NCBI GenBank assembly: GCA_027365485.1
Contig: DAHXNH010000219.1
Span: 1-43,617, forward strand
Direction: 5' to 3'
Length of the DNA stretch: 43,617 bases
From: Clostridiales bacterium
Lineage (GTDB): Bacteria; Bacillota; Sulfobacillia; Sulfobacillales; Sulfobacillaceae
This document shows positions 18,067 through 39,385 of this stretch, piece after piece. The notes beneath the pieces were generated by a model. It did not search any database, was not told where the DNA came from, and saw nothing but the letters and a program-made list of their open reading frames with translations. Position numbers and translations under genes: made by a program. How positions within the stretch are numbered: position 1 is the stretch's first letter; the number at the start of each line of letters is the position of its first letter.

Positions 18067-19416
18067 TTATTGCATCATTTCCGCCACCGCGGATGCCATC
18101 GGCAACGAGACCGCCGCTGAACCACCGACGACATCGATGGCGCTCACCAAACTAGATACCGACTTTAAATAGTCGTAGGTGGGACCGGGAATGACTGTGG
18201 ACGAGACCATGACCATGGGGAAGGCGATTTTGCCAGCCAGCGGTCCGGCAGTCAAGGCGTCGACGAGATGGGCTCCGTCGGCGTTGGTAATGACGACTCC
18301 CATGGGATGCGGAAAGAATCGTTGATTGACCAGGGCTGCCGTGGCATAGCGGTTCACTCCGGCCAAGGCCACGACATGCGGCAATTTGACACGATAGCTG
18401 GCTGCCGCCCCCACCACATAGGTCGTGGCAGCGGATTTCAACAATTGAGCATAGCCGGCAGGGAGGCCCCCTTTGGGCGGTAAAAGTAGAACCGGCGAAC
18501 GATTCTCGGCCGCCACGGGATCGATGGTTAAGGCATCGGTTAGATTTGCGTTATTGCCGGAAGAGAAAAAGAGTGTACTCAGGTTGCCCTGTTCGGCTTT
18601 GATAGCGAGAGCGACTTTGAGCGAAGTGGCATAGCGATTGGCACCGGCGTAGCCAACGACGGAGGTGGTCCGGGGCAGTTGACTGCGGATCGTCGCGTTG
18701 TCTACGGCGCCAATGAGGATGACGCGCTTCGCACCCAGCCGTCGAATGGCACTCAGGGGATCTTGACCAATGCTCTGATTGGATGTGGTCAACAAGATTG
18801 GTGCCTTCAGCAGCGCGGAAAGCGGCGCGGCGGTCAGGGCATCGACCAGGTTTTGATTGAGTCCGGAGGATAAAATAACGGTTTTGGCTCCCTTGGGATC
18901 ACTGGCTTGGGCGATTTCGGCAGCGGTACCAAAACGTGTGTAGCCTGCGTATCGAGTCTCAGTCGGCGGATTGCCCTTGCCTACGGTGACGAATGTCGCG
19001 ACTTGGTCGATTGGACCGTGGGCGGTATCTACAGTGGCGGTAAGGCGAATGGGGCCGGTGTGGTAGACGGCTTCTACCGTAAATTTAGCGATGCCGGCTT
19101 GAGCGCTGACGGTGACGGCGCGTCCTGGCGGATAGCCGTTGATTGTCAACATATTAGGACTACTCAAGGTGGCAGGAGTTAGAGTAATCTTTTCGCCACT
19201 GACCTTGGCTAGGGTATGGTGGGGGGTGGTCAAATCCACGGCCACTACCGTGGGCGTAGAAAGCTTTAAGGGCGCGGTCGGCGGCGCATAAAACTCGGGG
19301 GGGTAGGTGCGGCCCGAGGCGGCAAACACGCTTCCTGCTAAGTGTAGTGGCATAAGCAAAAAAGATAGGCTGAGGGCAACACCAATGATGAAACTACGCT
19401 TGGCTATGCTGTGCAC
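18067..19416 (-). CDS. Secreted protein with three cell-wall-binding type 2 (CWB2) repeats
   Basis: A secreted surface protein of about 449 residues. After a signal peptide (RSFIIGVALSLSFLLMPLHLAGSVFAASG) comes a roughly 120-residue beta-rich region that may be Ig-like. Three CWB2 repeats follow, each with an RYxT/RFGTA start and a (V/T)DALT core: TRFGTAAEIA...NLVDALTAAPL, NRYATSLKVA...NLTDALTIDPV and NRYATAALVN...HLVDALTAGPL. Such triplets anchor S-layer and other surface proteins non-covalently to wall polymers in clostridia and related bacteria. The frame opens at 19599, but AAAGGAG lies 8 nt before GTG 19416 and the signal peptide starts right there, so I use that start. The function of the N-terminal half is unknown. 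Confidence 0.88.
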   Translation of the reverse strand: MHSIAKRSFIIGVALSLSFLLMPLHLAGSVFAASGRTYPPEFYAPPTAPLKLSTPTVVAVDLTTPHHTLAKVSGEKITLTPATLSSPNMLTINGYPPGRAVTVSAQAGIAKFTVEAVYHTGPIRLTATVDTAHGPIDQVATFVTVGKGNPPTETRYAGYTRFGTAAEIAQASDPKGAKTVILSSGLNQNLVDALTAAPLSALLKAPILLTTSNQSIGQDPLSAIRRLGAKRVILIGAVDNATIRSQLPRTTSVVGYAGANRYATSLKVALAIKAEQGNLSTLFFSSGNNANLTDALTIDPVAAENRSPVLLLPPKGGLPAGYAQLLKSAATTYVVGAAASYRVKLPHVVALAGVNRYATAALVNQRFFPHPMGVVITNADGAHLVDALTAGPLAGKIAFPMVMVSSTVIPGPTYDYLKSVSSLVSAIDVVGGSAAVSLPMASAVAEMMQ

Positions 19417-19458
19417 GGTTAGGACTCCTTTATCCATAGTCGGATTCATCGCTGCTAT

Positions 19459-19500
19459 CGGTCGAAGCTCGGGGTGAAGGATTCCCGCCCGCTTCGACCG
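19459..19500. repeat. Inverted repeat in the leader of the CWB2 gene
   Basis: A perfect 10-bp inverted repeat (CGGTCGAAGC at 19459-19468 and its complement at 19491-19500) with a 22-nt centre lies about 43-84 nt upstream of the CWB2 start. It could be an mRNA leader hairpin or a regulator-binding site. It lies in the 313-bp region between this gene and the divergent deacetylase gene, where I found no other clear signal. Confidence 0.6.
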
Positions 19501-19729
19501 TTGCAGTGACTGTCCCAAAGTTCCGATGTTCGTACATCTTGTTTTGATATTCGCGCTTTGGTTGTGAAATCCTGTGAGACTGCACGGCATTTGCCACAAA
19601 ATATTGAGTCCCCCCAGATCAGAGGTCTAGAGCGCACCGTATGTCCGGCACTACATAGCTGATTTCGGCTCTGGCCATACTGAGGGCAGGTAGAGGAAGC
19701 ACACTAAGAAGGAATTGGGGTGGGCGATC

Positions 19730-20473
19730 ATGATGGGGCGAGTAGGTAAGGGTGTTGCAGTGGTGATGGGGCTATGGATCATGGGCGCCGTCGCAGGGTT
19801 TGGCGAGGCGACGGCGGCCAAGTTAGCACCTCCGGTGGTAGTGCGGTCCGTGCCGACTCTGAAAAAGGTGGTGGCGCTCACGTTTGACGATGGCCCAACC
19901 AAGAAGTGGACACCAGAAATTCTTCACGTGCTTCAAAGAAACCAAGTGAAGGCCACTTTTTTTGTGGTGGGTCGGCAAGCGCTTAGATACCCGCAATATC
20001 TCCACGAAGAAATCAAAGCGGGGATGGAGGTCGGCTCGCATGGTGCCAACCATATGACCTTGAAAGGAAAACCGGCCGCCTTGATTGAACGCGAAGTGAA
20101 CGAGAATAAAGAAATTTTGGAATCGTTGGGGGTGCCTAAGCCGCATTTATATCGCTTGCCTGGAGGCAATTCGGACAAATTGGCCTTGAGTGTCCTCACA
20201 AAATTGCATTATACCGTGGTCGGTTGGTCTATCGATCCCCACGACTGGCGTCACCGTTATTCAGCCGACCAGTTGACCACGATGGTGATGAAACACATCG
20301 AGCCCGGCGCCATTGTCATCTTTCATGACGGACCTAATTCCTCTGAGGCTACGGTAAAGGCAGTGGCCCAAATCATCGAGCAACTGAAGCACGAGGGCTA
20401 CCGACCGCTTACGGTAAGCAGGCTCATCCAAAGCGCCGAACTGCCACATAACCGTTTGCCGCTGGACCGGTGA
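19730..20473 (+). CDS. Secreted polysaccharide deacetylase (NodB domain)
   Basis: This is a carbohydrate esterase family 4 enzyme that removes N-acetyl groups from peptidoglycan, chitin-like or other wall glycans outside the membrane. A short N-terminal hydrophobic segment (VAVVMGLWIMGAVAGFG) serves as signal or anchor. The NodB motifs are present in order: TFDDGP (metal and catalytic Asp), SHGANHMTL (the two metal-binding His), RLPGG (usually RPPGG), SIDPHDW and IVIFHDG. All expected metal and catalytic residues are seen, so it should be active. I start at ATG 19730, with GGGGTG 7 nt upstream; the frame opens at TTG 19715 and ATG 19733 is also possible. It is divergent from the CWB2 gene and convergent with the metallothionein-like gene. 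Confidence 0.88.
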   Translation: MMGRVGKGVAVVMGLWIMGAVAGFGEATAAKLAPPVVVRSVPTLKKVVALTFDDGPTKKWTPEILHVLQRNQVKATFFVVGRQALRYPQYLHEEIKAGMEVGSHGANHMTLKGKPAALIEREVNENKEILESLGVPKPHLYRLPGGNSDKLALSVLTKLHYTVVGWSIDPHDWRHRYSADQLTTMVMKHIEPGAIVIFHDGPNSSEATVKAVAQIIEQLKHEGYRPLTVSRLIQSAELPHNRLPLDR

Positions 20474-20525: not shown

Positions 20526-20578
20526 GGTTAGACGGTGCGCCAGGTCCACACGTGGTGGACCTGGCGCACCGTCTAACC
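20526..20578. terminator. 24-bp perfect hairpin between convergent genes
   Basis: A 24-bp perfect inverted repeat (20526-20549 with 20555-20578) has a 5-nt ACGTG loop. It lies between the deacetylase gene (plus strand) and the metallothionein-like gene (minus strand), whose stop codon at 20573-20575 is inside the stem. On the minus strand it is followed by CTCCTCTCTTTCG, a pyrimidine-rich tract, so it is probably that gene's terminator. The plus side has no T-run. Confidence 0.75.
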
Positions 20579-20695
20579 GCAGTGGCAGGATTCACAATGG
20601 CAGTTGGTGCCACAAGAACACTCGCTGCCGCAGGTGTCAGTATTACAGTCCGTGCAGCAGCACGAGGTTGGGGTTTGACTTTGGCTCGGCATCAT
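20573..20695 (-). CDS. Metallothionein-like Cys-rich small protein (40 aa)
   Basis: This frame is easily overlooked because of its size. It encodes 40 residues starting MMPSQSQTPTSCCCTDC. Eleven are cysteine (12, 13, 14, 17, 22, 26, 28, 32, 34, 37, 39), arranged as CCC, CxxC, CxC, CxC and CxC, with His at 33 and 38 among the last ones; there are no aromatic residues. That composition is what metallothioneins use to bind Cu(I), Zn(II), Cd(II) or similar soft metals. Support for a real gene: a GGAGGT Shine-Dalgarno (complement of 20704-20709) exactly 8 nt before the first ATG, Cys codons with both TGC and TGT (not a simple repeat), and a strong hairpin at the stop. A TATAAG box (complement of 20749-20754) may be a -10, without a clear -35. 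I do not recognise a named family. Confidence 0.75.
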   Translation of the reverse strand: MMPSQSQTPTSCCCTDCNTDTCGSECSCGTNCHCESCHCG

Positions 20696-20832
20696 CGTGG
20701 AAGACCTCCCTTCAGAGAACTGGCTGTAGTGTGGCAACGAACGTAGGCTCTTATACCGTCGATTTAGGCAAACGGGGTTCGATTTTTAGAGACTGTTAAT
20801 TCTAGTGTTACGCCCAGATCGCGGTTTCGAGG

Positions 20833-20877: not shown

Positions 20878-22287
20878 GTGCGAGTATTTCCATGGGAATA
20901 TCTCTCTGTTCGATTGCATTTAGGTACGCAACTTGATTACGATGTACATAGTGAAAGTTTGGGAACCCAGAGATTGGCGGTGGCAAAAGTGACTCCTACG
21001 GTAATTGCAGAAACAGCTAAACCTTTAGAACGTGCTCTTTGTGTGGAAGGTGGATTTTCGCTTTGTGGGGAGGTTGCCATCGGGGGTTCTAAGAATGCGT
21101 CGCTTCCCATTATTGCCGCCGCCCTGTTGGCGAGGGAAGGTCAAACTCGGCTGATTGGGGTCCCACACATTTCCGACGTTGAAGTCATGTGTGATATTTT
21201 GCAAGGACTAGGAGTGCGGGTTCGGTGGCACGGCGATGCCTTGGACATCGATGCCAGTGGTCTTTATGGTGCGGAGGTGGACTCGGAACTAGGACAGCGG
21301 ATTCGTGCTTCCACCTATCTTTTTGGGGTGCTTTTAGCGAGATTTGGGGAAGCCAAGGTGCCTTACCCTGGAGGCGACCGGATTGGCGTGCGTCCGATTG
21401 ACTTTCATCTGGCTGGGTTGCGGGCCATGGGGGCAGAGGTGAGTACGGAAGCAGGTTGCCTGGTCGGAGTTGGGCGGCTCGGTGAGGCGTCAATTTACCT
21501 GGAACGTCCTTCGGTGGGGGCAACCATTCATTTGATGATGGCGGCAGCGCTAGGTAAGGATGCTCAGACGACCACCTTGTCAAATGCGGCGATGGATCCA
21601 GAAATCATGGACGTGGCGCGTTTTTTGAGCGCGATGGGGGCCAGGATCTATGGAGCCGGTACCTCCACGATTAAGGTAGTAGCGGTCAGAAAACTAACGG
21701 GGGCCACCTATGAAGTCATCCCAGATCGCCTGGAAGCGGGAACATTTTTGATGTCGGCGGCAGCTAGTAGGGGAGATATTACCGTCACTGGTGTCATCTC
21801 AGAGCACCTGACAGCGGTCATCGCCAAACTGCAGCAGATGGGTGTCAGAATGGAAGTGTTGGGTGATAGTATTCGAGCGCGGGTCGATCGCAGGCTTTCG
21901 GCGACAGATGTCTTAGCGGAAGAATACCCCGGGTTCCCCACGGACCTGCAACCCTGTATTGCAGCGCTGCTCGTAACCGCTATCGGCGATAGCATGGTGA
22001 CGGATTTGGTGTGGACGGATCGGTTCCAGTATACGGATGAGTTCGTGCGCATGGGTGGTCAGGTCAAAGTGGTGGGGTCGAGCGTCCGAATCCAAGGGGT
22101 TTCAGCGTTGACGTCGGCCGAAGTGACGGCGAACGATATTCGCGGAGGCGCCGCCTTGGTGTTGGCGTCTTTGGGAGCTCAAGGCAAGTCGACTATTTAT
22201 GGAGTGCACCACCTTGATCGAGGGTATGCTGGGTTAATTGATAAATTGATGGGACTGGGGGCTAGAATCGACGAGCTTGAGCTCTAG
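20878..22287 (+). CDS. murA: MurA, UDP-GlcNAc 1-carboxyvinyltransferase, with Asp at the Cys115 position
   Basis: MurA transfers enolpyruvate from phosphoenolpyruvate to UDP-GlcNAc, the first committed step of peptidoglycan synthesis in the cytoplasm. Family motifs are IGGSKNASLP (68-77), RASTYLFGVLLARFG, PDRLEAGTFLMSAAASRG (the catalytic Asp and binding region) and TDRFQYTDEF. The loop that reads PGGCxIG in E. coli reads PGGDRIG here: codon GAC at 21376-21378 (residue 167). That Cys is the residue alkylated by fosfomycin, and Asp at this place is known to keep activity and give resistance. The N-terminus has about 45 extra residues before the family start near LERALCVEGG. The true start may be GTG 20980 or TTG 20974; none has a strong Shine-Dalgarno. 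Confidence 0.9.
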   Translation: MRVFPWEYLSVRLHLGTQLDYDVHSESLGTQRLAVAKVTPTVIAETAKPLERALCVEGGFSLCGEVAIGGSKNASLPIIAAALLAREGQTRLIGVPHISDVEVMCDILQGLGVRVRWHGDALDIDASGLYGAEVDSELGQRIRASTYLFGVLLARFGEAKVPYPGGDRIGVRPIDFHLAGLRAMGAEVSTEAGCLVGVGRLGEASIYLERPSVGATIHLMMAAALGKDAQTTTLSNAAMDPEIMDVARFLSAMGARIYGAGTSTIKVVAVRKLTGATYEVIPDRLEAGTFLMSAAASRGDITVTGVISEHLTAVIAKLQQMGVRMEVLGDSIRARVDRRLSATDVLAEEYPGFPTDLQPCIAALLVTAIGDSMVTDLVWTDRFQYTDEFVRMGGQVKVVGSSVRIQGVSALTSAEVTANDIRGGAALVLASLGAQGKSTIYGVHHLDRGYAGLIDKLMGLGARIDELEL

Positions 22288-22317
22288 CAGCATTTTTCTC
22301 CTAGTTTCCATGCTGCT
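22286..22317 (+). terminator. Weak hairpin at the murA 3' end
   Basis: An 8-bp stem (AGCAGCAT at 22286-22293 with 22310-22317) starts at the murA stop codon and encloses a T-rich 16-nt loop. There is no T-run after it, so a terminator role is uncertain. Confidence 0.35.
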
Positions 22318-22884
22318 CGGCCGCGCCCTACCGGATGAAAAAGTCTCGGGGGAATTTTTCAGAACAGGAAGACCTGTTATCAAGGTTGGGGGCAATTGGC
22401 AGCGACTTTCAAGGGCATAGGGAGGGCCAGCCGCAAGGCTTCCATAGCGGGTGGCCCTCCCTATGCCCAATATTTGGAGGGCGTCCCAATTGGGGCTACG
22501 CGATTGGCTGGACGATGCAGACAGGGTGCCCAAAACGGCACGCTAGCGACGGCGGATCATGCTCATGTGCACGGGCTTGACTGGATCTCTTAAAAAAGCG
22601 TAACCGCAAGTGAGCGATGCAAAGGGAGCCTCTCCATCTTAATGGCGCGTGCTCAAACCCGGAGATCTTTAATGCATAGGGAAGGCGAGAATTCTCTCGA
22701 GAGCCAGGAACTATACCGGCTACATCGTCCACTTAGCCGTCTAGGCACCGGATTTGGACGATAAGGCGGCGGCGGGCTGATTTCATCAAAGGGATCAACA
22801 ATGACTTGCGGCATCGGCTTTGAGGTGTTCAGAAAGCCGATGCTAATCGTCATCGAGATCCGAGTGGTGAGCGGCCGGATTCCC
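22288..22884. other. About 600 bp without a supportable gene
   Basis: Short plus-strand frames (22335-22580 and 22396-22593) overlap a 17-bp inverted repeat and lack family motifs or good ribosome-binding sites. The stretch between murA and the convergent GH84 gene shows nothing else I can name. Confidence 0.5.
22413..22468. repeat. 17-bp perfect inverted repeat
   Basis: GGGCATAGGGAGGGCCA at 22413-22429 is followed, after 22 nt, by its perfect complement at 22452-22468. It lies in the gene-free region between the convergent murA and GH84 genes. There is no T-run on either side. It may be a distal transcript-end hairpin or a fragment of a mobile palindromic element. Confidence 0.75.
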
Positions 22885-39068: not shown

Positions 39069-39305
39069 CCGTCTTGCCGTCCTCAGCGTTATGAAGATAG
39101 GCGCGTCAACGAGAGGTTGGTTCTCCCCCCAGAGACCCCCCATCCGGGCCTTTCGTTGACAGAGCGCGAGGCTTGGTCTTCAGGAGGGGCAACAATATGT
39201 ACACGCTGTCAGAGACTAAAAAAGGGAAGCTGCACGGTTAATCGGACGGTTACGTCGGATAAGCGAGATAGGGCCGCTGGGAACATTTTGAGCCTGGGTC
39301 GGTCT

Positions 39306-39374
39306 CCACCGAAAGGCCAGGGGAGGTGTGCTGAGATGGTGCCTTCAGTCGCACCTCCCCTGGCCTTTCGGTGG
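39306..39374. terminator. 23-bp perfect hairpin between convergent genes
   Basis: A 23-bp perfect inverted repeat (39306-39328 with 39352-39374) encloses a 23-nt loop. It lies between the S9 peptidase gene (plus) and the GH113-like gene (minus), 11 nt from the latter's stop. It has no marked T-run on either side. The remaining 39069-39305 has no gene I can support. Confidence 0.65.
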
Positions 39375-39385
39375 TCAGCTACCGA

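Follow-up and report, generated by a model that had tools for sequence, protein, structure and literature searches.

A candidate forespore-expressed metallothionein-like protein with eleven invariant cysteines in the Sulfobacillales

The stretch of DNA analysed here (43,617 nucleotides from a Sulfobacillaceae genome, referred to in its entirety as the window) carries on its minus strand a 40-codon frame that encodes 11 cysteines. This locus raises the question of whether so short a frame is a gene and, if it is, what its product might do and at which stage of the life of the cell. The initial annotation had read the frame as a metallothionein-like protein acting as a sink for soft metals. The features on which the following analysis draws are:

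19715-20473, plus strand: convergent neighbour, polysaccharide deacetylase (PF01522, E 1.7e-34)
20526-20578: perfect 24-bp hairpin with a 5-nt loop (arms 20526-20549 and 20555-20578), which contains the TAG stop codon
20573-20695, minus strand: reading frame of the 11-Cys protein (40 codons and TAG), from its translation and from homologues with all 11 Cys
20576-20662, minus strand: conserved Cys core CCCx2Cx4Cx3CxCx3CxCx2CxC followed by Gly, with the same spacing in 27 of 30 loci
20704-20709, minus strand: ribosome-binding site GGAGGT, from the sequence; most homologues have GGAGG in a similar place
20727-20733, minus strand: predicted forespore-type -10 element CACACTA (gpr-trained matrix), 18 nt from the -35 element
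20752-20756, minus strand: predicted forespore-type -35 element GTATA (gpr-trained matrix)
20878-22287, plus strand: divergent neighbour, MurA-like UDP-GlcNAc enolpyruvyl transferase, taken from the list of open reading frames and named by eye

The frame translates to MMPSQSQTPTSCCCTDCNTDTCGSECSCGTNCHCESCHCG* (40 codons, or 39 from the second ATG), with 11 Cys residues arranged as one CCC, one CxxC and three CxC motifs and His residues at positions 33 and 38, in agreement with the initial annotation. With 40 amino acids, 27% Cys and no aromatic residues, the protein has the composition of a short Cys-rich metallothionein. The GGAGGT sequence ends exactly 8 nt ahead of the first ATG, as had been claimed, and 11 nt from the second one. 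In the close relative G001 the first ATG is replaced by ATT, which makes initiation at the second ATG (20692) more likely, and the translated frame probably encodes 39 amino acids.

Homologues were searched for at the protein level in the genus, the family and the order, and then with a profile built from 14 of them. At E values up to 0.05 the profile matched 27 of the 154 genomes of the class, comprising 24 genomes of the order and three from elsewhere in the class, G105, G109 and G086, the last of which is a false hit. Relatives of the gene are thus present in 24 of the 42 Sulfobacillales genomes and in two or so genomes from other orders of the class, and a phylum-wide draw of 398 genomes gave a single match, which was the window's own genome. 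Scanning genome contigs for the spacing pattern returned mostly poly-Cys repeats and, after filtering, at least five genuine matches; those listed are all in genomes already known from the class and did not widen the range of the family. Among the matches listed, the homologues come from records of metagenome origin, for instance the bins TL1-2.bin45, YP2.bin78, WH5.bin23 and CF.Solf.bin.9. A match from the first search of the window's own genome (C340:9541, L003) was rejected as false, with a low score and an internal stop codon.

The conservation of Cys spacing, proposed earlier as a check on the gene, is pronounced: in 27 of the 30 fully read loci the eleven Cys residues follow one exact spacing, CCCx2Cx4Cx3CxCx3CxCx2CxC, and in the remaining three the fifth-last and fourth-last Cys are separated by three extra residues. 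Within the 27 members with exact spacing all 297 Cys codons are retained, with TGC and TGT mixed in every column, and this purely synonymous exchange indicates purifying selection on the 11-Cys protein. The positions between the Cys residues vary across the family, so that the 11 Cys, located within 28 residues, are its only invariant positions. Both His residues stressed in the initial annotation are present in the window but are among the variable positions, one example being the Gln found in G007. Loss of the frame and frameshifts in the Cys codons, named earlier as grounds for doubting the gene, were looked for in the relatives, and neither was found.

Two copies of the gene occur in some genomes (G022, G026, G035 and G040), and G022 and G026 each have two clearly distinct types of Cys-rich gene. 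The variant whose Cys core is longer by three residues (CSQGATNCSC) is represented by G028, G023b and G026b (L194, L204 and L205); in these loci the gpr-like promoter described below is weak or absent.

The 24-bp hairpin at the stop codon proved to be a perfect inverted repeat containing the TAG, as had been described, with a folding energy of -52.8 kcal/mol (z = -11.9) and no T-run. G001 retains it with a compensatory change (GACGGTGC/GCACCGTC to GACTGTGC/GCACAGTC), and G007 has a hairpin placed further downstream that is unrelated to the one in the window. The structure is situated between convergent genes, does not belong to the conserved gene and probably serves as a two-way transcript end or as a 3' stabiliser. 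No RNA family was found at the locus.

The gene order of the window (deacetylase, 11-Cys gene, MurA-like gene) is retained only in G001 and G007. Neighbours differ between genera, and those annotated include GH31, UbiA, DsrE, deacetylase, molybdopterin enzymes, DUF4396 and DUF302; no metal-efflux or metal-sensor family was found among the annotated conserved neighbours. A cupredoxin-like gene adjoins the homologue in the outlier G109 and nowhere else. Since its neighbours change between genera, the 11-Cys gene travels alone with its own promoter, and it appears to be monocistronic. Short and unannotated as its 40 codons are, a chance Cys-rich frame is refuted by the retention of the frame in 30 loci with only synonymous change at 297 Cys codons, by the ribosome-binding site in most loci and by the persistence of the frame while the genes around it change. 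By all of these sequence comparisons, the 11-Cys frame is a genuine protein-coding gene.

In the comparison with known families no NCBIfam model matched the 11-Cys family, and none of the Pfam models reached its cut-off. The SmtA-type family PF02069 is absent from the 11-Cys protein and from all 42 genomes of the order, and a control search with the same model found Synechococcus elongatus. Together with the conservation of the family, these results uphold the earlier description of an unannotated metallothionein-like protein that is not of the SmtA/BmtA type. Both kinds of protein are small, Cys-rich and bacterial, but the 11-Cys family has no conserved His and would not be expected to form a folded zinc finger. 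The eukaryotic model PF12749 (Metallothio_Euk) gave 14.1 bits against a cut-off of 22 (E 0.047), and 2 of 14 family members matched it at E values up to 1. MymT, the mycobacterial Cu metallothionein, is likewise small, Cys-rich and bacterial; its Cys spacing is presumably different, and a sequence match was not expected.

In a search of solved structures, the best match was the wheat-seed Zn metallothionein Ec-1 (2kak, E 0.0045), and the vertebrate MT-2 domains (2mrt, 2mhu, 2mrb) gave E values of 3 to 9 only. The CxCx3CxCx2CxC stretch of the 11-Cys protein has the spacing of TTCGCGEHCGCNPCACGR in Ec-1 and is also found in the beta domain of vertebrate metallothioneins. Ec-1 resembles the family further in being Cys-rich with almost no other conserved residue. 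However, it has 17 Cys, two domains and two conserved His, whereas the 11-Cys family gathers all of its Cys into a single stretch, has CCC on the N-terminal side and conserves no His; the two conserved His, three Cys-rich stretches and 17 Cys that define plant Ec-type proteins were not found in it. The match to Ec-1 is weak and could be caused by composition and convergence, the latter being the likely source of the resemblance. The likeness to eukaryotic metallothioneins is one of probable working principle, and common descent with them is not supported.

Side-by-side comparison of the upstream regions of the family revealed a common layout, GYATA...CANNCTA. To avoid circularity, a promoter matrix was trained solely on 30 upstream regions of the SASP protease gene gpr, drawn from the same set of genomes (consensus GCATAAAC ... 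GGCAGTCTAAG). The site upstream of the 11-Cys gene, GTATAAGAGCCTACGTTCGTTGCCACACTA, scored 14.6 (p = 0.002 against random windows and 0.003 against shuffles of the same region) and was the best hit of this matrix in the whole 43.6-kb window. Across the family, 28 of 30 upstream regions exceeded the 95th percentile of the scores that random windows of these loci gave. A score of at least 11.8 was reached by 22 of 30, compared with one of 115 other intergenic regions at these loci, and comparison with their own shuffles gave p values of about 0.05 or less in 29 of 30. A GYATA-like -35 element with a CANACTA/GATACT-like -10 element at 17-18 nt is accordingly present in 28 of 30 loci by the gpr-trained matrix. 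A promoter regular expression matched 18 of 30 regions versus 19 of 5000 random windows, but this expression was shaped on the data and the gpr matrix is the trusted evidence. Upstream of the homologue in G109, a genome from outside the order, this kind of promoter is absent.

In 29 of 30 loci, among them that of the window's genome, sigG is preceded by a site of the same layout, GTATA-N17/18-[CG]ATACT, which shares the -35 element and the spacing with that of the 11-Cys gene. A matrix trained on sigG recovered 17% of the metallothionein upstream regions and 13% of those of gpr, and the window's own site passed it (p = 0.005). Sigma-F controls gpr in C. difficile and its orthologue in B. subtilis, but not the gpr gene of C. 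acetobutylicum (PMC3789822). SASP upstream regions matched the gpr matrix poorly (6 of 30), so the metallothionein promoter groups with gpr and not with the late sigma-G class; a regular expression of the exact consensus gave no match in them. In the upstream regions of SpoIIR, expected to be sigma-F targets, the gpr-type motif was not found, and in those of SpoIVB it was weak (8 of 28). A simple sigma-70 scan found no site at the 11-Cys gene and a single match downstream of it (20235-20208). The likeness to gpr is a direct result of these comparisons, and the link of the gene to sporulation rests on this promoter, from which we infer expression and location of the protein in the forespore.

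The SASP and SpoVA promoters of the order (L208-L267) look sigma-G-like, apparently with a -35 box of GGGTA/GAGTR instead of GYATA. These two boxes may reflect a split between two forespore sigma factors in the order.

Fin and CsfB/Gin are small forespore Zn proteins of B. subtilis, and the forespore-type promoter and small size of the 11-Cys protein would suit a Zn-binding regulator of forespore sigma factors that acts like them and does not store metal. However, Fin and Gin each carry roughly four Cys, laid out as a zinc ribbon, together with other conserved residues, whereas in the 11-Cys family the Cys residues are the sole invariant positions, which leaves no conserved surface for a protein partner. 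With no Pfam or NCBIfam match to add to this, we regard such a regulator as very improbable. A redox or structural spore protein, serving as a thiol reserve that counters oxidants in dormancy or as a cross-linked component with metal binding only incidental, would share the forespore-type promoter and the restriction of conservation to Cys. Its difficulty lies in the tight CxC-rich spacing and the CCC motif, which are hallmarks of metal-thiolate clusters, and in the exact retention of every spacing, which is rare in structural cross-linkers; this explanation is improbable.

A stronger contender is metal detoxification in vegetative cells by a metallothionein induced under metal stress like SmtA, with the upstream motif being coincidental or belonging to another sigma factor whose -35 box is similar. 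This is the classic role of metallothioneins, the habitats of the group are metal-rich, and the gene is missing from 18 genomes of the order that either form spores or are incomplete. Most of these 18 (of 42, by the profile search) have sporulation genes; among them are S. acidophilus and the majority of the genomes in the genus labelled g8. The only probable non-sporulating genome of the order, G039 (no hits for SASP, SpoVA, GPR, SpoIVB or sigG), also has no 11-Cys gene, and neither do the 17 others. Since nearly all genomes without it sporulate, the gene is not essential for spores. Vegetative detoxification is nevertheless difficult to reconcile with a gpr-like promoter at 28 of 30 loci against a null expectation of 5%, with annotated conserved neighbours that hold no metal-efflux or metal-sensor family, and with a sigma-70 scan whose only match lies downstream. 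We consider it unlikely.

The reading that we find rather probable is a small metallothionein-like protein of Sulfobacillales, made in the forespore and buffering or storing soft metals in the spore. Forespore RNA polymerase with sigma-F, and possibly with sigma-G too, would transcribe the monocistronic gene from GTATA-N18-CACACTA. The resulting chain of about 39 residues, presumably disordered without metal, would use its 11 Cys thiolates to enclose soft metal ions in a single cluster. From the Cys pattern we infer metal binding and its stoichiometry: the alpha domain of vertebrate metallothioneins uses 11 Cys as M(II)4Cys11 (PMC6269658), a known cluster type which suggests about four divalent ions for the 11-Cys protein. 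By this rule the predicted load would be some four ions of Zn or Cd; of Cu(I), the protein would take up more.

In the forespore and the spore core the metal would be held in a harmless and mobilisable form. Such a buffer might shield the dormant spore from the Cu, Zn or Cd of a metal-rich acid habitat; the acidic, metal-rich setting is plausible from the membership of the order Sulfobacillales and from one homologue in the record CF.Solf.bin.9. Alternatively, it might provide a reserve of Zn or Cu and of thiols carried into germination, as is thought for Ec-1 in wheat seed. The earlier proposal of a soft-metal sink thus retains its metallothionein-like core but missed the developmental setting indicated by the forespore-type promoter, and the sink is probably better read as a metal buffer or store of the spore compartment.

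Known metal stores provide partial parallels for a forespore metallothionein. Ec-1 is abundant in a dormant dispersal stage, the seed (PMC6269658). In B. subtilis, Csp3 is a Cu storage protein of late sporulation that supplies Cu to the spore laccase CotA, and this four-helix bundle is proposed to act in the mother cell under sigma-K, feeding the coat (PMC9484137). Csp3 is thus an earlier case of a Cys-rich protein that stores metal in connection with sporulation, but it has many more Cys, a role in the mother cell and coat, and a sequence unrelated to that of the 11-Cys protein.

On the evidence of the alignments and searches, the 11-Cys family is a new metallothionein-like family, and new as well in the developmental setting that it probably has. 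We give an even chance to the full proposal that it is a new family of bacterial metallothioneins reserved for the endospore and the first to be under forespore control; as a counterpart of the seed metallothioneins of plants, it would load the spore with Zn, Cu or Cd or protect the spore from them. To our knowledge, metallothioneins have rarely been documented in Bacillota. A search of largely open-access literature that paired metallothionein with forespore or sporulation turned up no description of such a protein in bacterial spores, so no priority is claimed. If the proposal is true, these bacteria of biomining and acid drainage equip their spores with a metal buffer that is genetically programmed, and it becomes testable how soft metals are retained in or excluded from a dormant core without active efflux. 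The peptide is small enough for synthesis, and its 11-Cys pattern is a natural case in which the convergence of cluster design can be tested cleanly.

Some further observations concern the surroundings of the gene. A forespore-like site, ACATAGCTGATTTCGGCTCTGGCCATACTGAG, lies upstream of the deacetylase gene 19715-20473 (19653-19684, plus strand; score 12.0), and the corresponding sites score 12.0 in G001 and 9.2 in G007; the encoded protein may be a spore-cortex deacetylase. On the minus strand, 18067-19599 encodes a secreted-looking protein whose repeats resemble, by eye, cell-wall-binding repeat 2. The gap after the MurA-like gene contains a 22-bp hairpin (22413-22468, 95% complementary, 12-nt loop), and just ahead of it lies one arm (22305-22374) of a 70-nt inverted repeat with 80% matching, the other arm of which is located 20 kb away at 2315-2384; the two arms are possibly copies of a dispersed repeat. 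Another long hairpin, with 32-nt arms (88% complementary) and a 23-nt loop, is found at 39297-39383.
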